A DNA stretch of 24,670 bases from Prevotella sp. UBA3208 (GTDB taxonomy: Bacteria; Bacteroidota; Bacteroidia; Bacteroidales; Bacteroidaceae), in the NCBI GenBank assembly GCA_002363695.1, contig DEWO01000094.1, forward strand, positions 1 through 24,670, given 5' to 3'. Below the pieces are notes generated by a model. It saw nothing but the letters and a program-made list of their open reading frames with translations, did not search any database and was not told the DNA's origin. The translations under genes were made by a program, and so were the position numbers. Shown here piece after piece: positions 9,549 through 24,670 of the stretch. Within the stretch, counting starts at the first letter, position 1. Every line of letters begins with the position of its first letter.

Positions 9549-9585
9549 GTTTTCGTGTGTTTCATGGTCGTTTCAATTTGTTTCA
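9549..9585 (-). promoter_or_regulatory. Helix-phased TGAAAC repeats upstream of susC (candidate operator)
   Basis: GTTTCA occurs at 9559-9564, 9570-9575 and 9580-9585, with a GTTTTC variant at 9549-9554. Spacings are 10, 11 and 10 bp, one turn each, so alternate copies are 20-21 bp apart on one face. The array covers the region from about -33 to -70 relative to the predicted start, where an activator would sit. The last copy includes the stop codon of the GH35 gene. AraC-type regulators often bind direct repeats of about 21 bp, so the PUL regulator at 13793-16645 is the obvious candidate; binding is inference. Confidence 0.5.
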
Positions 9586-11361
9586 ATCGTATTTATAAAG
9601 GCGGATATGCAGGATTTCCCAGTCCCCACAGGCTATCCGCACGTGCCTTCCCTGATGGTCCTGGTCACCGTTGAGACGTCTCACAAAGTGAGTTGCTCCT
9701 GTCTCATCAATAGTCACTTCGTCCACCGAGCCGATGCCGACACGCTGGCCGTTAAATTTTTCTCTTTTCACTTTTCCCTTTACCCTTCCATCGCCTTCTG
9801 CCACGAATCCGTCTTCGCCTAACACTTTCTGCTCTTCATGGGCTTGTTCGTATGCTGTGGCAAAGGTCACTACGACGCCAGTGCCTGCCAGCAGATATTC
9901 GTCCTTGGCCAGTTTCAGCAGCATGGCACCGCCTTCGGGCCATGTGGAACCGTCGGTGGCTCGTGGGTCCCAAGGCAGCGTGTAGTAGTGACGACAGGTG
10001 ATGACCATACCGTCTTCTTGGATGATGCGCTCCTTGTCCTGTTGGTCGAAGAGCAAGCCATAGGAACTGTTGGCTGTTCTCTCTTTGAGAGTGTGGCGTT
10101 GCGAGGGCTTTTGGCTGTTAGTTTTTTGTAGTTCTCTCTTTGAGAGTGTGGCGTTGCGAGGGTTTATGGCTGACAACTGGCGCAAGAGCGCATAGGCTTT
10201 GGTGATATTGGCGGTCTCGCGGGGCGAGGCTTGGTCGATGGCGAAGGGCGAGAAACCGAGGGCCTGATGCTCGCCAAAGGCGTACATGGCGCGGGCTCCG
10301 CTGTTCTCGCAACAACGGCTCTCGGGAATGAACAGCCGGTTGTTCGGCAGGGCATATTGGTCGGCCCAGCCCTTGAAACCGGTATCGTAGATGTCGGGAG
10401 CCAGACACAGCAACTGTGGGGCACCTGCGTTCCAGAGGTCGATGAGATGGGCCAACGGACCTGCTGAGGGGTATTGGCCTGGCTGGCGTCCGCGACTGTT
10501 CATGGCGGCATTGACGTAGAGGGGCATCTGGGTGTACTTCCGGGCTGTCTCGCACAACCGTCCTACGTACTTGGCATAGTAGTAGGCCATGAAAATCTCG
10601 TCTGTATAGATGTCGTCGCCAAACACTTCCGTCCACGTTCCCCCCTTCAGTCCACCAGAAGCCCTTTCTTTCAGCCACGGGTGCAGTCCCTTTTCATGCT
10701 TCTTCAGATAGGTCAGCAGTTCCAAGGGTACACCTTTCTTATATATAGCGTCAGCCAGTGGGGAATGGTCGCGGGCCGACTCCAGCATACCAATCTCGTT
10801 CTCTACCTGTACCATGCTGACCACGTCGCTGCCTGTCTCGCTGATGTGCTGCATCAGGGCACCGAAGGCGCGGTTGTCAGCCTTGAACACCTCTTCCGAG
10901 AAACAACTGGCAATCTCCAAGGGCTTCCCGGTTTCCGTTCTGGCTCGCGGAAAACGCTTGGTGTCCTGCTTGAACCACAGCGGAGCATAGCACGACATAC
11001 TGTTCTTCCACGCTCCGAACCATAGGAACACCACCTTCAGCCCGTTCTCGCGAGCCCGTTGGATGGTGCGGTCGATGAGGGTGAAGTCAAACCGTCCCTC
11101 CGTAGGTTCCAGCAGTTCCCAGTAGGCCGGCACCAGTACCGTGTTCAGTCCCAGCGTCTTCATGCGAGGTATCACCTCGTCAATATCCGCTACCGAGGTC
11201 GCTGCCGAATTGCTCAACTCGCCGCCCAAAATGCGTGCCACACTCTGAACTTCAGGTCTGAGACTGCGTGCCACACTCTGATCTTCAGGTCTGAGACTGC
11301 GTTGCGCCTGTAAGCCTATCGACAGGCATAGTAAAAGAGTAAGTAGTTTGGTACGTAACAT
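9583..11361 (-). CDS. GH35-like (beta-galactosidase family) enzyme with repeat-derived inserts
   Basis: A 592-residue exported protein; signal peptide MLRTKLLTLLLCLSIGLQAQ. The body reads as a GH35-type TIM barrel: LGLNTVLVPAYWELLEPTEGRFDF (about 70-93), acid/base Glu189 in QVENEIG, nucleophile Glu347 in RLFIPESRC, followed by FGEHQALGFSPFAID. The C-terminal part resembles the domain found with GH35 enzymes of the DUF5597 kind. Such genes occur in xylan PULs and might remove galactose or L-arabinopyranose side groups; the substrate is inferred. It carries three stretches absent from the expected fold: residues 21-43 (an 11-residue unit SLRPE[D/V]QSVAR twice), about 399-430 (two copies of another reading of the same palindromic element), and about 525-536 (KGKVKREKFN, low complexity). 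Active-site residues remain intact. It has its own promoter and lies 144 bp upstream of susC. Confidence 0.85.
   Translation of the reverse strand: MLRTKLLTLLLCLSIGLQAQRSLRPEDQSVARSLRPEVQSVARILGGELSNSAATSVADIDEVIPRMKTLGLNTVLVPAYWELLEPTEGRFDFTLIDRTIQRARENGLKVVFLWFGAWKNSMSCYAPLWFKQDTKRFPRARTETGKPLEIASCFSEEVFKADNRAFGALMQHISETGSDVVSMVQVENEIGMLESARDHSPLADAIYKKGVPLELLTYLKKHEKGLHPWLKERASGGLKGGTWTEVFGDDIYTDEIFMAYYYAKYVGRLCETARKYTQMPLYVNAAMNSRGRQPGQYPSAGPLAHLIDLWNAGAPQLLCLAPDIYDTGFKGWADQYALPNNRLFIPESRCCENSGARAMYAFGEHQALGFSPFAIDQASPRETANITKAYALLRQLSAINPRNATLSKRELQKTNSQKPSQRHTLKERTANSSYGLLFDQQDKERIIQEDGMVITCRHYYTLPWDPRATDGSTWPEGGAMLLKLAKDEYLLAGTGVVVTFATAYEQAHEEQKVLGEDGFVAEGDGRVKGKVKREKFNGQRVGIGSVDEVTIDETGATHFVRRLNGDQDHQGRHVRIACGDWEILHIRLYKYD
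9757..9784. repeat. Heptamer repeat CTTTTCM inside GH35
   Basis: Consecutive 7-bp units TTTTTCT, CTTTTCA, CTTTTCC and CTTTACC lie in the reading frame and encode a short basic stretch (KGKVKREK) near the C-terminus. They are similar in kind to the repeats at other gene junctions in the window. Confidence 0.6.
10077..10162 (+). repeat. Palindromic element, two tandem copies (GH35 mid)
   Basis: TTCTCTCTTTGAGAG followed by TGTGGCGTTGCGAGGG occurs at 10077-10107 and again at 10132-10162. Each contains a CTCTC-TTT-GAGAG hairpin. The period is 55 bp, not a multiple of three, so the copies are translated in different frames (RNATLSKREL and QRHTLKERT). Sequence after each copy is also similar, so the duplicated unit is about 55 bp. 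Neither copy introduces a stop codon. Confidence 0.85.
11233..11298 (-). repeat. Palindromic element, two tandem 33-bp copies (GH35 N-terminus)
   Basis: Two 33-bp copies, 11233-11265 and 11266-11298, each GCGTGCCACACTCTGA followed by a TTCA-centred imperfect hairpin (two mismatches in eight pairs). Thirty-three bases equal eleven codons, so the frame is kept: SLRPEDQSVAR then SLRPEVQSVAR, directly after the signal peptide. The same peptide, SLRPEGRSVA, appears at the start of the regulator gene. Confidence 0.9.
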
Positions 11362-11387
11362 GAGTTTTGGTCTTTAGATTCTAATGG

Positions 11388-11419
11388 CAAAAGTAAAATA
11401 AAATTCTGAAAGCGCCAAA
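11388..11419 (-). promoter_or_regulatory. Promoter of the GH35 gene
   Basis: On the minus strand, TTTG (11419-11416), a 20-nt spacer, then TACTTTTG (11395-11388) matches both Bacteroidetes promoter elements exactly. Start of transcription is expected near 11384, leaving a leader of about 23 nt before the ATG at 11361. Confidence 0.8.
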
Positions 11420-11524
11420 TCTTTTTACCGATTTTTCATTTGTACTCGCTCTGCTTTTTCCTAGAGTGCACTCCAATTATTTTTTGAGTGCAGTCAAAAA
11501 AATGTTCCACGGCTTGGAACAAAC

Positions 11525-11587
11525 AATACTCGCCACTTATTCTGCAATAAGGGGCACTTATCTGAGAATACTCGGCTCTTATTATTA
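11525..11587. repeat. Three tandem 21-bp units (candidate operator array)
   Basis: Units start at 11525, 11546 and 11567. The first and third share AATACTCGSCWCTTATT (15 of 17 bases identical); the middle is AATAAGGGGCACTTATC. The 21-bp period is two turns of DNA, so equivalent bases face the same side. It lies about 105-170 bp upstream of the GH35 promoter. Such phased direct repeats suit an AraC-type regulator; that role is inference. Confidence 0.6.
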
Positions 11588-11631
11588 TGGGGATGCCTGT
11601 TATCACTCACGCAGACGTCATCTACGGGTTG

Positions 11632-11691
11632 TGCGGATAGTCTCCATAAGGGTATAGAAGGCATCCGCATGACTCACGGAGCCTATCCGCA
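11632..11691. repeat. Long inverted repeat in the GH35/GH67 gap
   Basis: TGCGGATAG (11632-11640) pairs with CTATCCGCA (11683-11691); after one mismatch the stem continues with CTCC/GGAG. This gives 13 pairs around a loop of about 32 bases that contains another ATCCGCAT. It is not followed by a T-run, so it is not an obvious terminator. Confidence 0.65.
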
Positions 11692-11715
11692 TCAATGATA
11701 AGAGGCATTTCTTTA

Positions 11716-11800
11716 GGTGTAAGAATGCATCGCCACACTTATATCTTCTAGGTGTAAGAAGGTGCCGGAAGGTGCCGGATAAAAACGACAATCTTACACC
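11716..11800. repeat. GGTGTAAG repeats with a probable palindromic-element relic
   Basis: AGGTGTAAGAA occurs at 11715-11725 and 11750-11760, and the inverse TCTTACACC at 11792-11800. A 10-bp tandem, GGTGCCGGAW, occupies 11761-11780. GCATCGCCACA (11727-11737) leads into a CTTATATC/GGTGTAAG stem with G-T pairs; this has the layout of the palindromic elements found in the genes around it and may be a decayed copy. Confidence 0.5.
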
Positions 11801-11898
11801 CGTATATAATTGTTTTACAGACGGTTGCAACGCTCTGTAGTGCTTGTGGTAGGATAATCTTGTCATGTGTTGTAAATAGAGGATGAATAAAAGGGCTA

Positions 11899-13779
11899 TC
11901 ACTTCCCCTGGGCGAACTGGCCGAAGTAGCGGAGGCAGACGTCGCGCCACTCGCGGGCGTTCTGCAGCTGGTCCTCCAGTCGCTCGTCCACCTCGCGCCA
12001 GCGTTGCTCGTCTACGTAGTGGCGCATTTTGTAGCGCCATGTGGTCTGCAGGATGTCCACGAACGTCACGCCCATGTGGTATTCAAACTGCATTCTTTCC
12101 CACAGCGTGGAGCCGTCCTTCATACGGTAGGTCCAGGGCACGCGGTGGAACCACAGCAGTACGTCTTCTGGACAAGTCTCGATGTTGTCGTAGAGCTTAG
12201 CCATGTCGGGGCGGTACTGGCTGGTGGCATCGGTTCCTGTGTGGGTGCGGTTGAAACCGACGCTGTCTTTCGTGGCCTGGTGGTAGTAGACGGGACACCA
12301 CTCTAACGGGTAGTCGGCCTTAAAGCCTTCGGGCTCGGGACCGTAGTGGTGGTCGAACTTGAAGATGTGGTGCAGTCCCAGCGGCATCATGTACCTGACG
12401 CAGGCGTCGCGGCTCCCCTCCATGAGTTTGCCCATGGTGTTGACAAAGTCGGTATCGGTGGAAATTGCACCGCCACACTCTGACCGTGGGTCAGAGAACG
12501 TCTGCCGCAACCATTCGTGGGCGATGGTGGTCGAGCTAAGCTCTGGGTTCCAGGCTAGCCGGCCGAAGGCGTACCAGTTGGCTTGTGAGAAGTGGTGGCC
12601 GCACCAGTTGCGGTCCTTGCCGATATTGGCTACACCGGCAATACCCTTCAGCTTTTGGGCAGAGACGAAGGAGAAGAACTCTTTCCACATGGGTGCCAGA
12701 TAGACGAGGTGGCGCGACTGGCCGAGGTACTCCTGCGTAATCTGCAGTTCCACCATGTTGGGTGTCTGCTTAATCTGGTCGAACACGGGACTATAGGGTT
12801 CGCGGGGCTGGAAGTCCAAGGGACCGTTCTTGGTCTGTAGGATGACATTGTCGCGGAACTGTCCATCCAGGGGCTTGAACTCACTGACGGCCTGCTTGAC
12901 GCGGTCTTCGCCTTTGTGGTTGGCACCATAGACGAAGCAGCGCCACATGACGATGCCCTTGTAAGGCTTCAGGGCATCAGCCAGCATGTTGGCACCATCG
13001 GCATGGGTGCGGTGGTAGTCGCCAGGGCCGGGCTGCCCTTCGCTGTTGGCCTTGACCAGGAAACCTCCGAAGTCAGGGATGAGTTTATAGATTTCCTTGG
13101 CCTTGCGCTGCCACCAACGGGCCACCGACTTGTTCAGGGGGTCTGCCGTCTTGGTGTCGCCCAGTGCCATGGGGGTGGCGAAGTTGATGCTCAGGTAAAC
13201 CTTGATGCCATAGGGGCGCAAGATGTCTGCAATCTTCCTGACCTCTTTTAAATAAGGTGTAGTCAGCATTTTGGGCGAGGCATTGACATTGTTCAGTACT
13301 GAGCCGTTGATGCCGATAGAGGCGTTGGCGCGGGCGTAGTCGCGGATGAGTTGTGTGTCGAGGTGGAACCACTCGAAGATGCTCTCGCCGGCATAGCCGC
13401 GCTCGATGGAGCCGTCCAGGTTGTCCCAGTGGTTCAGCAGGCGCAACGGGAACTGCGGATGTGACTGCCCGGTCTCTCCGCGCAGCAGGGCATAGGTGCC
13501 ATAGAGCAGGCCGATGTCCCGACGGGCGGTGACAGTGTGGCCCTGGATATTGTAGCCGTCGTTGTCGGGCATGGTGGCGTCGAGCTTGAGGACTGCCTGG
13601 TCTCCCTGATAGTAGGTGGCGAGCTCTTGCCTGGCAATGTCGATGGTTGGCGACGAGGCGTTGGCGGTGACGTGGGCTTTGTTGACGGGCTGGTAGCGCA
13701 GCCACAGCTGGTGTCCGTCCTCGGCAGCAACAGTCGAGGCGAATACAAATGTAAATAGTGATAATAATAGTTTTTTCAT
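11899..13779 (-). CDS. aguA: GH67 alpha-glucuronidase
   Basis: A 626-residue exo-acting enzyme that removes (4-O-methyl)-glucuronic acid from the non-reducing end of short xylo-oligosaccharides. The start at 13779 was chosen because a signal peptide (MKKLLLSLFTFVFASTVAAE) follows directly; the frame is open 17 codons further upstream, but those overlap the regulator gene. GH67 hallmarks: LLYGTYALLRGE, FEWFHLDTQLIRDYARANASIGING, FGGFLVKANSEGQPGPGDYHRTHADGANMLA with the proposed acid Glu247, DFQPREPYSPVF with Asp322 and LQITQEYLGQ with Glu350 as the proposed base pair, then NWYAFGRLAWNPELS. Near residues 426-438 the frame runs through a palindromic element (FSDPRSECGGA), apparently harmless to the fold. 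It starts 13 bp after the regulator gene stops, so the two are surely co-transcribed. Confidence 0.95.
   Translation of the reverse strand: MKKLLLSLFTFVFASTVAAEDGHQLWLRYQPVNKAHVTANASSPTIDIARQELATYYQGDQAVLKLDATMPDNDGYNIQGHTVTARRDIGLLYGTYALLRGETGQSHPQFPLRLLNHWDNLDGSIERGYAGESIFEWFHLDTQLIRDYARANASIGINGSVLNNVNASPKMLTTPYLKEVRKIADILRPYGIKVYLSINFATPMALGDTKTADPLNKSVARWWQRKAKEIYKLIPDFGGFLVKANSEGQPGPGDYHRTHADGANMLADALKPYKGIVMWRCFVYGANHKGEDRVKQAVSEFKPLDGQFRDNVILQTKNGPLDFQPREPYSPVFDQIKQTPNMVELQITQEYLGQSRHLVYLAPMWKEFFSFVSAQKLKGIAGVANIGKDRNWCGHHFSQANWYAFGRLAWNPELSSTTIAHEWLRQTFSDPRSECGGAISTDTDFVNTMGKLMEGSRDACVRYMMPLGLHHIFKFDHHYGPEPEGFKADYPLEWCPVYYHQATKDSVGFNRTHTGTDATSQYRPDMAKLYDNIETCPEDVLLWFHRVPWTYRMKDGSTLWERMQFEYHMGVTFVDILQTTWRYKMRHYVDEQRWREVDERLEDQLQNAREWRDVCLRYFGQFAQGK
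12467..12496 (-). repeat. Palindromic element inside GH67
   Basis: GCACCGCCACA is followed by a perfect 8-bp hairpin, CTCTGACC-GTG-GGTCAGAG (12478-12496). It is read in frame as FSDPRSECGGA. It has the reverse orientation and nearly the same sequence as the copy in the regulator at 15404-15434. Confidence 0.88.
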
Positions 13780-13792
13780 GATGCTTTTTTGT

Positions 13793-16645
13793 TTATTGTT
13801 TGTTTTCTGCATATTCTGTAGGTGTGACACCGAAGTGTTTCTTGAAGACGGTAGAGAAGTGGGCCTGGTTGTTGAAACCTACCGAGTAGGCTACCTGTGT
13901 GATGTTGATTTTCTTCTCGCGGATGAGTCGGGCAGCCTGTTCCAGTCGCAGATTGCGGATGAACTCACTGGTCGAGATGCCCGTCATCTCCTTCATCTTA
14001 CGATGTAGTTGGGCGCGGCTGATGCCTACCTTGTGGGTCATCATCTCCACGTCGAAGTCGGGATTGGACAGGTTCTCGTTGACGCACTTCATGATTTTCT
14101 CCATCAGCAGGTCGTTATTGCCCTTGACCTTGACGGGCTGTATCTCGCCCTTCTCTTCCAACGAGCCGAAGAACTTGTTGCGCAGCCACTTCATGTTCTG
14201 CTTCATGTCGTTGATCATCAGGTGCAGCCGCTTCTCGGCCAGGTAGCGCTTCCAACTGAAGGCCACCAAGGCCCCGAAAGCCGCAATCAGCAGGAAGTAG
14301 AACGCATAGGCCCATGTCGTCTTGTACCAAGGTTTCTGGACGGTCACCATCAGGGTGGTCACTTGGTCGGACACGATGCCGCTGGCAGAAGCCCTGACCA
14401 GAATGGTATAGAGTCCCGGTTGCAGTTGGTGGAAGGTCAGTTGGTTGTTGCCTTCGTCGGTCTGCATCCAGACGTCTGTGTCTTTTTCCGGGTTGAAGGT
14501 ATGGGAGTGCCCTGCAATGACCCGATACTGGAAAGAGACATTCTCGGTGTTCTTGAAGTCCAGCAGAGAGAACTCCATGGTGAAAGAGTTCTCTGCGTAT
14601 GGCAGTTCAAAGTGGTCCTGCAGCGGGTTCAGCGATTTTCCTGCCACGTTGAAGCGGGTCAGGAAGGTACGGCCCAGTGTCTGTTTCAGGGTGCTGACAT
14701 CCTTGGGCAGGAAGGTCACCAGTCCGTCGGCAGTACCGAAACTGATGCGGTCGTCCGGATGGTGTATCATGGCTCCCAGGACATAAGAGAGGTGAGGGGT
14801 GAGGGGTGAGAGGTGAGACGGGGGAGCGTACTGCCAGATGCCTCTTGTCGTTGAAATCCAGATGGTGCCCTGACGGTCGCGAACCATGCCGCATATCATC
14901 TTGTCGTGCAGTTGTTCTGTATCGGCAGCCTCGGCCACTCGGTTGGTTCTGGGGTCGTAGCGGTAGAGTCCGCTTTCAGTACCTATTAATATATCGCCCT
15001 CCTTTGTCTCGCAGGTGGTGTAACATTGTTTTCCGTCCAGCAGGACGTTCCATCCGCGGCTGTTGAAGACGAATCCATCGGGCTGCATCATCGATACGCC
15101 ACTGGTGGTGCATATCCACAACTGTCCGTGTGAGTCGAACATCAGTCCTTTGATCCAGTCGTTACACAGGTAGCCGCCCTTGCGATGGGTTTGCTGCATA
15201 CTGAGCAGTTCGCCACGCTTCGACTGGGGGTCATAGACATAGAGTCCCATGCCGAACGAGCAAATATATAATCTGCCCTCGGCATCCTCTGTCATACAGT
15301 TCAGTCCGCGGCCGTTCAGCGTGAGTTCAGGTTGAGCCTGCCCTGTATCGGGGTTGTAGCGGTAGAGCACATTCTCAGTGGTCAGCCAGTACTGTCCAGA
15401 CTTCTCTGACCCACGGTCAGAGTGTGGCGTTGCATTGCTGCGGAAGATGAGGCGGGTGCCGGCGGGTGAGTGGGGGTGACTCTTTACCTGTCCCTTGCCG
15501 TCCAGCAGGAATACGCCGCTGTTCTGTACCGTACACCATGTGTCTTGGCCCTCGCCAGCCGTGATGGACGAGACACCGCCTCCTGTCACATAATGCTGGT
15601 CTGACAGACTCCATGTGCTGAAGGCAGACTGCTGACGCGACAGCACCAGCAGGCCTTTATTGTAACAGGCTGCCCAGAGGTGTTGGTCTTTGTCTTCCAT
15701 GACGTCTACCACATGAGCGGTGTTCAGGTCTATACGTCCGTTTTCCCCCTCCACTCGTGTCAGTTGCTTACTGTCGTGTGCTATCTTCATCAGCCCGCTG
15801 CCTGAGGTGGCCAGAAAGATATCGCCCTTTTCGTCTATGGTGGCATCTTCGATGCTGACGTTATGGTCAAGTGCTGACAGGTCGAAACCGGCGTCGCGGA
15901 TGTTGCCCGTCTGGTAGTCAAAGCTCATGATGCCGTGCATACAGACAATGAGCAACTGCTGACCGTACTCCAGATAGTTCATCGGCTGACCTACCGTTGA
16001 CTGATAGTCGCGTAGAGCGGTGGGTTGGCCGTTCTTGACCATAAACCGGGTCAGTGTCGTCAGATGGTCACTGCGCCACAGGTGACCCTTGCGATCCAGG
16101 TAGATGCGACTATAGAAGTGGTCACTCTGCCGTCGGTTGAACTTGCTTTCGTAGTCTATCTGGTCAGGTTTGCTGATGCTATAGAGGCCATAGCCTGCTG
16201 TACCGATCAACAGGCCTTTATTGTTTTCCGTCAGCGAGTTGACACGAGGTGTCAGCCGGTCGGGGAAGGTGTAGCGATGGAAGTTGTCATGCTCGTAATC
16301 GTAGCTGACCAGACCTCGCGAACAGCCTACCCACAGTCGCCCGCTTTTGTCGACGAACAATGTGGATATCTCGTTGTCAATAAGTGTTGTCGAGTCGTTG
16401 CGACTATGGAAATAGGTGGTGAAGCGGTAGCCGTCGAACTTGTTCAGTCCGTACTCGGTGCCCACCCACACAAAACCATATCGGTCTTGGCAGATACAGG
16501 TAATCAGACCGCTCGACAGCCGGTCTGATGTGTACAACTGACTTGTCGCAGCACACAGATGTTGTACTACGAACAAGCAGATGGCCATAATGCATGCCAC
16601 ACTCCGACCTTCAGGTCGGAGACTATGGAACTTTACATGCTGCAT
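13793..16645 (-). CDS. HTCS-like membrane regulator lacking kinase and receiver domains
   Basis: A 950-residue transcription regulator. An N-terminal signal (MAICLFVVQHLCAATS, residues 20-35) leads into about 14 Reg_prop-type propeller blades (DRYGFVWVGTEYGLNKFDG, KSGRLWVGCSRGLVSYD, RQGTIWISTTRGIWQY) reaching about residue 650. A Y_Y_Y domain (about 685-770) and one membrane helix (about 776-798) follow. After only about 45 linker residues comes an AraC-type domain (845-948: NPDFDVEMMTHKVGISRAQLHRKMKEMTG, ITQVAYSVGFNNQAHFSTVFKKHFGVTPTEY). Canonical HTCS proteins carry a histidine kinase (H, N and G boxes) and receiver between membrane and AraC parts, about 1300-1400 residues in all; none is present. 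The frame is unbroken. It probably senses xylo-oligosaccharides and activates the PUL. The start may be residue 1 or Met20 (16588); a palindromic element lies between. The gene sits between GH3 (16-bp gap) and GH67 (13-bp gap). Confidence 0.88.
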   Translation of the reverse strand: MQHVKFHSLRPEGRSVACIMAICLFVVQHLCAATSQLYTSDRLSSGLITCICQDRYGFVWVGTEYGLNKFDGYRFTTYFHSRNDSTTLIDNEISTLFVDKSGRLWVGCSRGLVSYDYEHDNFHRYTFPDRLTPRVNSLTENNKGLLIGTAGYGLYSISKPDQIDYESKFNRRQSDHFYSRIYLDRKGHLWRSDHLTTLTRFMVKNGQPTALRDYQSTVGQPMNYLEYGQQLLIVCMHGIMSFDYQTGNIRDAGFDLSALDHNVSIEDATIDEKGDIFLATSGSGLMKIAHDSKQLTRVEGENGRIDLNTAHVVDVMEDKDQHLWAACYNKGLLVLSRQQSAFSTWSLSDQHYVTGGGVSSITAGEGQDTWCTVQNSGVFLLDGKGQVKSHPHSPAGTRLIFRSNATPHSDRGSEKSGQYWLTTENVLYRYNPDTGQAQPELTLNGRGLNCMTEDAEGRLYICSFGMGLYVYDPQSKRGELLSMQQTHRKGGYLCNDWIKGLMFDSHGQLWICTTSGVSMMQPDGFVFNSRGWNVLLDGKQCYTTCETKEGDILIGTESGLYRYDPRTNRVAEAADTEQLHDKMICGMVRDRQGTIWISTTRGIWQYAPPSHLSPLTPHLSYVLGAMIHHPDDRISFGTADGLVTFLPKDVSTLKQTLGRTFLTRFNVAGKSLNPLQDHFELPYAENSFTMEFSLLDFKNTENVSFQYRVIAGHSHTFNPEKDTDVWMQTDEGNNQLTFHQLQPGLYTILVRASASGIVSDQVTTLMVTVQKPWYKTTWAYAFYFLLIAAFGALVAFSWKRYLAEKRLHLMINDMKQNMKWLRNKFFGSLEEKGEIQPVKVKGNNDLLMEKIMKCVNENLSNPDFDVEMMTHKVGISRAQLHRKMKEMTGISTSEFIRNLRLEQAARLIREKKINITQVAYSVGFNNQAHFSTVFKKHFGVTPTEYAENKQ
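14791..14818. repeat. Heptamer repeat GGTGAGR x4 in the regulator gene
   Basis: Four exact 7-bp units, GGTGAGG, GGTGAGG, GGTGAGA, GGTGAGA, encode SHLSPLTPHLS near residues 610-620, at the edge of the propeller. Gain or loss of one unit would shift the frame and remove the membrane and DNA-binding parts. Confidence 0.8.
15404..15434 (+). repeat. Palindromic element inside the regulator propeller
   Basis: CTCTGACC-CAC-GGTCAGAG (15404-15422) is a perfect 8-bp hairpin followed by TGTGGCGTTGCA. It is translated as NATPHSDRGSEK near residues 404-415, between two propeller blades, where an insert in a loop could be tolerated. Confidence 0.88.
16591..16621 (-). repeat. Palindromic element at the start of the regulator gene
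   Basis: TGCATGCCACA precedes a perfect hairpin, CTCCGACC-TTCA-GGTCGGAG (16602-16621). Its reading, SLRPEGRSVA, is the same as for the copies in GH35. It lies between the first ATG (16645) and Met20 (16588), so it is either a harmless N-terminal extension or part of the leader, where the hairpin would sit 14 bases before the start codon. Confidence 0.85.
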
Positions 16646-24206: not shown

Positions 24207-24670
24207 AACAAGGTGATGCGCCAGTTCGGGATAAGATTAGAACAATGAGAGTTGATTAGTGTCCTCGATACAATACCCCTGAATAGCCTCAGGTTTGTTG
24301 TCGAAGAAACAATATGCTCCAAGTGCAGCGATAAGGTTCATCAGGAAATTGTTGACAGACCTATGTCTGGAGTGTACGAGATTTCCTTTGTCCTTGAGCA
24401 AATGGTTAATGCACTCGATGATGTACCTTTTTCTGAGCATAATTTTGTCCCATAGTGGCATCAACCTGTTCTTCATGTTGTTCCTGATTCCAGTGACCAG
24501 ATGTACTCCGTCGGCAAAGAGCGCATCAAACAGGTTGGGCGAGATATATCCCCTGTCAGCAAAGAGTTTCCCGTAGATTCTCTTGCCGAGCACAGCCCAT
24601 ACCTTCGGATCCCTGTCATCCACGTTGGCCCCTGTAAGACAGAACATTAACGTGAGTTCGACGTAAGAAA
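24207..24670 (-). mobile_element. IS982-family insertion sequence, one end (cut by window edge)
   Basis: The transposase identifies the element; its other end is outside the window. The boundary inside the window is uncertain. The sequence GATGCGCCAGTTCGGGATAA (24215-24234), just past the transposase stop codon, is a candidate terminal inverted repeat that cannot be tested without the other end. The element lies upstream of the U32 promoter and does not interrupt a recognisable gene here. Confidence 0.6.
24237..24670 (-). CDS. IS982-family transposase, C-terminal part
   Basis: The frame is open from the window edge to the stop codon at 24237, about 144 residues; the ATG at 24647 is internal. 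It reads as the last part of a DDE transposase of the IS982 family: CLTGANVDDRD, GKLFADRGYIS with a catalytic Asp, LVTGIRNNMKNRLMPLWDKIMLRKRYIIECINHLLKD containing the final catalytic Glu, and HSRHRSVNNFLMNLIAALGAYCFF. The visible part is intact, without stops or frameshifts, so the element may be active, but its first half is not visible. Confidence 0.9.
   Translation of the reverse strand, partial: SYVELTLMFCLTGANVDDRDPKVWAVLGKRIYGKLFADRGYISPNLFDALFADGVHLVTGIRNNMKNRLMPLWDKIMLRKRYIIECINHLLKDKGNLVHSRHRSVNNFLMNLIAALGAYCFFDNKPEAIQGYCIEDTNQLSLF

Follow-up and report, generated by a model that had tools for sequence, protein, structure and literature searches.

Is a short hairpin that recurs inside three neighbouring genes an ordinary part of the encoded proteins, or has it been inserted into them? 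This question is raised by a stretch of 24,670 nt from Prevotella sp. UBA3208 (assembly GCA_002363695.1, contig DEWO01000094.1, positions 1–24,670, forward strand), which is called the window throughout. A first-pass annotation had claimed seven copies of a hairpin joined to a constant sequence in the genes for a GH35-like enzyme, a GH67 enzyme and a regulator, and a possible relic at 11727–11759. It was confirmed that the hairpin observation is real and that the hairpin belongs to a dispersed palindromic family, which extends beyond the window. The family is very probably made up of miniature mobile DNA elements, non-autonomous ones, which some Prevotella lineages carry.

Structure and insertion site of the hairpin element

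The unit is composed of a hairpin with a variable stem, of which the outer CT..AG is nearly fixed, a foot (TGTGGCGTTGC) and a 3-nt tail, which was AAT, ATT, GAG or GAA in 178 of 182 copies. The inserts are 27–39 nt long, mostly 27, 33 or 35 nt, and extreme stems such as CTTTTTTCCTAAAAAAG retain only CT..AG and the foot. The feet of the element are TT at the left and TGTGGCGTTGC at the right, and neither a GTAG nor a CGTC tetranucleotide is present. There are no terminal inverted repeats, as the right end (foot and tail) has no inverted partner and the left end is the hairpin arm itself.

For each of the 182 copies the site without the insert was sought in all available DNA, and an empty counterpart was found for 25 of them. 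In 22 cases the insert was bounded exactly by TT on the left and by the end of its 3-nt tail on the right, in the other 3 the junction was one base further, and a target duplication was found at none of the 25 empty sites. The clearest case is CAGGCCAATT^GGGAACGCC in locus L058 (genome G008), compared with a 33-nt insert in L110; at this homologous coding site the insert turns QAN-WERP of L058 into QAN-SLTSGQSVALQ-WERP. The base to the right of the insert was G or C in 163 of the 182 copies and in 32 of 32 in genome G056, where the background after TT is about 54%. Several copies were nested in other copies, at GTT^GC, and copies were clustered in G056, with three neighbour pairs less than 1 kb apart among 39 copies, where about 0.5 were expected. 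Within 1.55 Mb of this genome, AG plus foot (at most one mismatch) was found 34 times, in 33 cases with TTCT at the left end and once without a left arm. This single degenerate copy, on contig C12 near the copy at 185541 (L063), consists of the foot and the right arm (GACCTTAAACAGAG-TGTGGCGTTGC).

Some individual sites differed. At L130:3919–3952 about 22 bp of the flanking sequence occur as a direct repeat, once on each side of the copy, unlike the duplication-free sites. At L097 and L103 the flanks of the copies form short inverted stretches (ATGATGC / GCATCAAT and TTCTCCT / GGAGAAG), and thus the target may itself fold.

A covariance model, R2, was built from 20 family members on hairpins of 19–20 nt. 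It replaced a sequence-only model, which had resulted from a first mixed-length alignment in which RNAalifold found no pair. R2 recovered all seven claimed copies, and the possible relic proved to be a genuine copy; all eight lie within 10077–16623, each at an E value of at most 0.0012, and these scores are partly given by construction, because two of the 20 model rows are contained whole in the window and a third without its last three bases. Three weaker matches (E 0.039–0.058) were the opposite strand of copies already counted. Hairpin plus foot was clearly above chance in the window, unlike the 11-nt foot alone (at most two mismatches), for which 18 matches versus 10.65 expected were marginal, since one of 100 shuffles was as high. 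No family reached the gathering score in an Rfam scan of the window.

Distribution among genomes

The pattern GAGTGTGGCGTTGC (at most one mismatch) had 55, 36 and 26 matches in the genomes G034, G056 and G008 (reversed-pattern controls 0, 0 and 1), and 0–7 matches in the other 97 of 100 genomes (controls 0–4). With R2 (E ≤ 0.01), copies were found in 9 of 60 genomes of the same genus, namely 45 in G034, 39 in G056, 27 in G008 and one or two in each of six, and none was detected in 51. A lack of further copies, which the first-pass annotation had named as a refutation, was not observed. The nearest genome, G001 (70% complete), had one copy. A family-wide R2 search yielded one copy each in 2 of 201 genomes; because only 34 candidates were scored per genome, it speaks better against other very rich genomes than against single copies. 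Both R2 scans used stricter filters.

A scan of named genome records gave at least 120 stretches, and the 80 listed were all titled Prevotella, Prevotellaceae, Bacteroidales or Bacteroidetes, none Rickettsiales. Several of these 80 titles name ruminant foregut samples; HUN156 and MN60, both cultured rumen strains, are included, and the HUN156 record and G056 have identical contig coordinates. Viral contigs contained no match to the element. A distant plasmid search with the GH67 insert region brought up 15 records of other genera, none of which covered 80% of the query.

Search for a mobilising enzyme

By analogy, a Y1 HUH enzyme would be the natural guess for the mover, yet no Y1 type accompanies the element. 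Y1 (PF01797) was matched in 40 of 60 relatives, in 39 over the cut-off, and the matching relatives include 17 same-genus genomes without an R2 copy. Fourteen element-bearing genomes were searched (13 distinct ones, as two share coordinates; copies were counted only in G056, G034 and G008, and the others were chosen for a listed copy). Thirteen had a match, 11 of them over the cut-off, to several Y1 types without a consistent one, and G107, which has at least six copies and for which completeness is not stated, had no Y1 match. The two Y1 genes of G056 are about 15 kb and 175 kb away from the nearest copy. Hairpin copies on both sides of a Y1 gene were found at none of 32 Y1 loci, read to about 1.5 kb at most on each side; the nearest approaches were L229, with one copy in a repeat-rich frame, and L234, with an element-like piece more than 1 kb away.

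The first-pass annotation had thought of repetitive extragenic palindromes (REPs) moved by REP-associated tyrosine transposases (RAYTs). It is rather unlikely that the element is an atypical REP of the Bacteroidetes mobilised by such a Y1 HUH transposase, although its size, the hairpin and the lack of target duplication all fit, and although Bacteroidetes TnpA-REP genes of subclass 2.6 with atypical hairpins lacking GT[AG]G are described in PMC6006769. A RAYT-like gene with the length and motifs of this subclass (about 180 aa, NHLH, YIHQNP) was indeed present in the element-bearing genomes G008, G102, G103 and G111, but it was flanked by a different palindrome (GGCGAATTTGCAATTCGCC / GCATTACAAATGC types) and not by the element. 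Among the 60 same-genus genomes 11 had a match to the protein, which was strong in G008, G035 and G043 and in pieces in G029. The gene was not found in G034, the genome with the most R2 copies, and G056 has only a weak piece of 42% identity; conversely, the gene is 87% identical in G035, where no copy was found. Together with the lack of a GTAG or CGTC tag, the mixture of Y1 types speaks against the proposal of the first-pass annotation.

The second palindrome family (GGCGAATTTGCAATTCGCC, GCATTACAAATGC, CGAATTACAAATTCG and GGGGATTTGCAATCCCC types) was seen beside RAYT-like genes of about 180 aa at L236, L237, L238, L245, L249 and L250. Its loop is similar to that of the hairpin element and its stem is variable; it probably represents the RAYT-like gene's own repeats.

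Several other candidates were rejected. The Y1-like frame L229:1407–2256 (minus strand) in G108 contains one copy, is repeat-rich and is probably broken; it joins a NusG-like stretch (recognised by reading, no search was made), tandem repeats, the copy and the Y1-like domain. Y2_Tnp (IS91-type) occurs in 1 of 60 genomes (G053), where no copy was found. A longer autonomous element that ends at the hairpin was sought by comparing the 2.5-kb flanks of the 182 copies, and no recurrent unit was seen: 6 pairs resembled each other in both flanks, 14 in the upstream flank alone and 6 in the downstream flank alone, and the long one-sided matches (2047, 2500 and 1636 bp) were single pairs, which look like homologous loci. 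The mover of the hairpin element may thus be lost or of another kind. A DDE_Tnp_1_3 transposase piece at 24237–24647, close to the end of the window, has no link to the element.

Covariation in the hairpin stem

Stem pairing was analysed without a pairing requirement in 53 distinct exact-foot contexts from 1.55 Mb of G056 and from 29 loci fetched by the foot pattern. AG preceded the foot in 52 of them, and 49 had TTCT 12–26 nt upstream, compared with about 10% at random places. Stem pair 3 was formed in all 49 (CG 31, TA 16, TG 2; shuffled-partner maximum 43) and pair 5 in 45 (maximum 34). Stem positions 3 and 5 covary, and this unfiltered analysis supports only those two pairs. The larger set of 182 copies, which contains 70 distinct hairpins, had been selected by requiring pairs 1–4; pair 5 was formed in 61 of the 70 (shuffle maximum 45). 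In the 20 copies picked for the model 92.5% of the cells pair, versus 26–40% when the partners are slid, and the covariation score was higher than in all 500 shuffles, in a comparison that leans towards structure because the rows were chosen for variety among hairpins from the pairing filter. In these 20 copies neither the count of pairs changed on both sides (2; mean of shuffles 1.7) nor that of further pair types (6; mean of shuffles 5.6) stood out from the shuffles. Hairpin-templated repair could contribute to the covariation.

The covarying stem, the fixed foot and the many intergenic copies would also suit a regulatory or structural motif, i.e. an RNA hairpin, a protein-binding site or an uptake-like signal, which is kept for its function and spread by recombination. 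This explanation is quite improbable, since copies are found in both orientations, in unrelated genes and nested in each other, the element is undetected in most genomes of the same genus, and the Rfam scan was negative.

The copies in the window and their variation among close homologues

The three host genes are located on the minus strand. The gene for a DUF5597 / GH35-GH42-like glycosidase (9583–11361) contains four copies. Copy 1 (10079–10105, plus strand; model match 10077–10105, E 0.0012) is a 27-nt insert after TT, composed of CTCTC-loop-GAGAG, TGTGGCGTTGC and GAG; it is antisense to the gene and results in the peptide SQRHTLKER. Copy 2 (10134–10160, plus strand; model match 10132–10160, E 0.0012) is also a 27-nt antisense insert after TT and, in another frame than copy 1, results in RNATLSKRE. 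Two 33-nt units on the minus strand form a tandem pair close to the N-terminus. The first, copy 4 (11263–11295; model match 11270–11295, E 8.3e-4), encodes SLRPEDQSVAR, and the second, copy 3 (11230–11262; model match 11230–11264, E 1.8e-6), has the structure CTCAGACC-TGAA-GTTCAGAG followed by TGTGGCACGC and ATT and encodes SLRPEVQSVAR. The former relic, copy 5 (11724–11758, minus strand; model match 11724–11760, E 5.4e-6), is intergenic, has a length of 35 nt and consists, after TT, of the hairpin CTTACACCTAGAAGATATAAG, TGTGGCGATGC and ATT.

The GH67 alpha-glucuronidase gene (11899–13779 from its ATG; the frame in the list of open reading frames begins further upstream, at GTG 13830) contains copy 6 (12464–12496, minus strand; model match 12464–12498, E 8.3e-9), a 33-nt sense insert after TT that encodes FSDPRSECGGA. 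The gene for a two-component-propeller / AraC-type regulator (13793–16645) has two copies, of which one is internal and the other lies at the 5′-end of the frame. The internal copy 7 (15404–15436, plus strand; model match 15402–15436, E 3.4e-10) is a 33-nt antisense insert after TT with the peptide NATPHSDRGSE. Copy 8 (16589–16621, minus strand; model match 16589–16623, E 3.3e-8) has 33 nt and the structure CTCCGACC-TGAA-GGTCGGAG, TGTGGCATGC and ATT. As the regulator start codon is uncertain and the 97% identical homologue P0241 is given as starting downstream of it, copy 8 may be untranslated; if translated, its peptide would be SLRPEGRSVAC. The insert boundaries in the window are CTC..GC plus 3 nt, after TT, or after GT for the copies at 11230, 11263 and 16589. 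Both internal GH35 copies (10079–10160) are surrounded by a short GGCTGTT-like repeat, which most homologues also lack, so that one insert lies within another.

Close homologues differ by whole units. The GH67 insert is absent from P0123 and P0124 (96% identity), present once in the window and twice in tandem in P0121 and P0122 (98% and 96%), and the segment is missing from 118 of 121 rows (120 homologues and the window). In the regulator alignment, which comprises 24 of 120 listed homologues and the window, the internal insert occurs once in the window, three times in tandem in P0241 and in none of the other 23 of 25 rows. At the GH35 tandem-pair site P0001 (95%) carries one unit, and the window and P0002 (94%) carry two. 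P0002 lacks the internal copy 1 and has an insert FSNLKVGVWHA at another place, which by back-translation from the protein would also be a hairpin element. Across the window proteins, the copy number at a given site thus varies from 0 to 3 among homologues that are 94–98% identical, which indicates that the change is recent.

Slippage of local tandem repeats, for which the tandem 33-nt units in the GH35, GH67 and regulator families would speak, is very improbable as the sole cause of these differences, because it gives neither first copies at new sites nor nested copies nor copies across dozens of unrelated genes, and 25 elements have an empty counterpart. That the segments are ordinary conserved parts of the proteins, as open frames in genes with many homologues might suggest, is refuted for practical purposes by their absence from nearly all GH67 and regulator rows and by near-identical homologues that differ by whole units. 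The orthologue comparison proposed by the first-pass annotation accordingly came out in favour of insertion: most homologues lack the inserts, and the same residues were not found in distant species.

In the solved GH67 structure 1gqi an 11-residue gap aligns at the insert. A structure model of the window protein (mean predicted local distance difference test score, pLDDT, 65) has the insert at residues 432–442 of 630, where most scores are lower than 50, and weakly suggests a loop between helices. Another type of in-frame insert (PQAPQPPKGGANGCAVTPP.GGWGAGG) was observed at two places in the GH35 homologue P0074, apparently a different repeat family in coding DNA.

Copies inside protein genes

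Based on a home-made codon-usage test, 56 of the 182 copies were called coding, 109 noncoding and 17 unclear, which provides the count inside and outside of genes that the first-pass annotation had suggested. Coding inserts had lengths of 27 nt (40 copies), 33 nt (12), 30 nt (1) and 29 nt (3), whereas a length of 35 nt was found 37 times among the noncoding copies. Lengths divisible by three made up 53 of 56 coding versus 47 of 109 noncoding copies (Fisher p 9e-12), and 5 of 5 versus 4 of 25 in G056 alone. Because an open frame was required on both sides, this bias tells what survives and not where insertion happens. Surviving in-gene copies mostly add 9–11 amino acids without breaking the reading frame. 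Pfam matches were obtained in 9 of 10 scanned host frames, and the hosts were unrelated (Tex, glycogen synthase, a PIF1-type helicase, GH3 and a TMEM260-like protein).

The occurrence in both orientations and several reading frames, already described for the window, was found again in the larger set: 45 coding copies were antisense and 11 sense, above the 3:2 assumed from open frames (p 0.0015), and all three antisense frames were used, with unrelated peptides of the NATPHSQRE, RNATLSKRE and SQRHTLKER types. No particular peptide thus seems to be selected, which fits tolerated insertion. The idea that the element seeds new peptides into proteins was not supported; the peptides look like a by-product of harmless insertions. 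That none of the copies makes a stop codon, as the first-pass annotation had noted, is mostly survivorship: the mean number of open frames of six was 3.96 for 25 copies of 33 nt (shuffles 3.78) and 3.17 for 18 copies of 35 nt (shuffles 3.16), and was raised for 27 distinct copies of 27 nt, with 5.33 (shuffles 4.24).

Proposed mechanism and strength of the evidence

The empty sites show that the unit inserts precisely behind TT and without target duplication, and the next base is usually G or C. Insertions fall between as well as inside genes and in both orientations. Within genes, selection would leave nearly only units that have a length divisible by three and no stop codon in the frame of the host, mostly with 9–11 extra residues, the pattern that was observed. 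Gain, loss and tandem copy change are ongoing among close relatives, as the protein comparisons show. According to the proposed mechanism, a trans-acting enzyme would recognise the folded hairpin plus foot, probably in single-stranded form, in the manner of IS200/IS605-like and REP systems.

Several points weigh against a mobile element. No mobilising gene was found in the searches made (Y1, Y2, longer autonomous element). Low-complexity flanks characterise 22 of the 25 empty sites, and of the 3 complex ones 2 are exact and 1 is one base off. Presence and absence around the window's own proteins were seen at the protein level, not in DNA. The coding calls lean on the home-made codon-usage test, and the excess of multiples of three is in part a consequence of demanding a spanning frame that is open. 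Stem pair 4 (formed in 42 of 49, with shuffles reaching up to 43) and pairs 6–8 were no better than shuffles, partly because 21-nt hairpins carry a bulge or shift there; pairs 1–4 of the 182-copy set prove nothing, because four pairs were required for selection, and only pair 5 counts. TT and CTCT..AGAG were built into the pattern used for the scan of named genome records. The strand of the element agreed with GC skew in 14 of 28 copies, in one genome with weak skew, and this apparent lack of orientation bias would be unlike the lagging-strand preference described for IS608.

A bolder version of the mobile-element reading is possible, if doubtful. The 27-nt hairpin unit might be among the smallest mobile elements that invade proteins in frame, with a mover outside the RAYTs and all other known HUH transposases; the common 27- and 33-nt, mostly open forms might have been shaped by passage through coding DNA, and Prevotella enzymes might continually gain and lose loops of 9–11 residues.

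Comparison with known systems

A search of titles and abstract openings in the open-access literature, with subscription papers outside its scope, brought up no paper on this hairpin family.

Insertion 3′ of a fixed TT, the lack of duplication and the hairpin at the left end resemble IS200/IS605-type (Y1 HUH) elements; the differences are that no cognate Y1 gene shares the ends, no longer element recurs and no Y1 type is consistent. A miniature inverted-repeat transposable element of a DDE transposon is not indicated, as the hairpin element shows neither target-site duplications nor terminal inverted repeats. A possible parallel is offered by the very small mobile repeated elements and small dispersed repeats of cyanobacteria, mobile repeats of 21–27 nt that also occur in genes, though in another phylum.

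REPs are described as stem-loops of 20–40 nt with many copies, some in genes, and have been proposed to be selfish mobile DNA; a conserved tail of 3 bp is found in GTAG-1/-2 repeats, and CGTC families are said to lack a dedicated transposase (PMC3733652). The hairpin element is similar as a stem-loop of 27–39 nt with 27–45 copies in three genomes and a conserved 3-nt tail, and it differs in that an 11-nt foot takes the place of the GTAG or CGTC tag and that no associated RAYT could be found. TnpA-REP subclass 2.6 of the Bacteroidetes has atypical hairpins without GT[AG]G and copies elsewhere in the genome (PMC6006769). These features, the phylum included, are shared, but the subclass-2.6-like genes in element-bearing genomes adjoin another palindrome, and the published hairpins were compared by description only. 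PINSR of Prevotella intermedia, with 188 bp, is intergenic, and its amplification is assumed to predate the divergence of the strains compared (PMC4755523). It is likewise a dispersed repeat confined to some Prevotella, and differs in length and in its intergenic location from the hairpin element, which has 27–39 nt and occurs also in genes.

The best-known hosts of mobile palindromes that preserve the frame of the protein genes they sit in are Rickettsia and Wolbachia. Rickettsia palindromic elements (RPEs) are palindromic, dispersed and non-autonomous, are found in frame in unrelated protein genes, also in Wolbachia, have about 100–150 bp with terminal inverted repeats, and occur in Rickettsiales; according to one of the papers, all rickettsial orthologues have their inserts at the same locus (PMC2229807, PMC3767692, PMC10969869). 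The likeness to RPEs drawn by the first-pass annotation holds in so far as the hairpin element is also palindromic, dispersed and in frame in unrelated protein genes, with nearly all coding copies being multiples of three. It ends with size and host: the hairpin element is too short, mostly 27–35 nt, does not belong to Rickettsiales, has one hairpin and a TT target without duplication, and varies between near-identical homologues. Taken together, the family is far smaller than RPEs, resides in gut Prevotella and differs among near-identical homologues, and its targets include enzymes for which assays and structures exist (GH67). Two questions thus become testable: what moves tiny palindromes that have no RAYT, and whether a protein ever benefits from such an insert.

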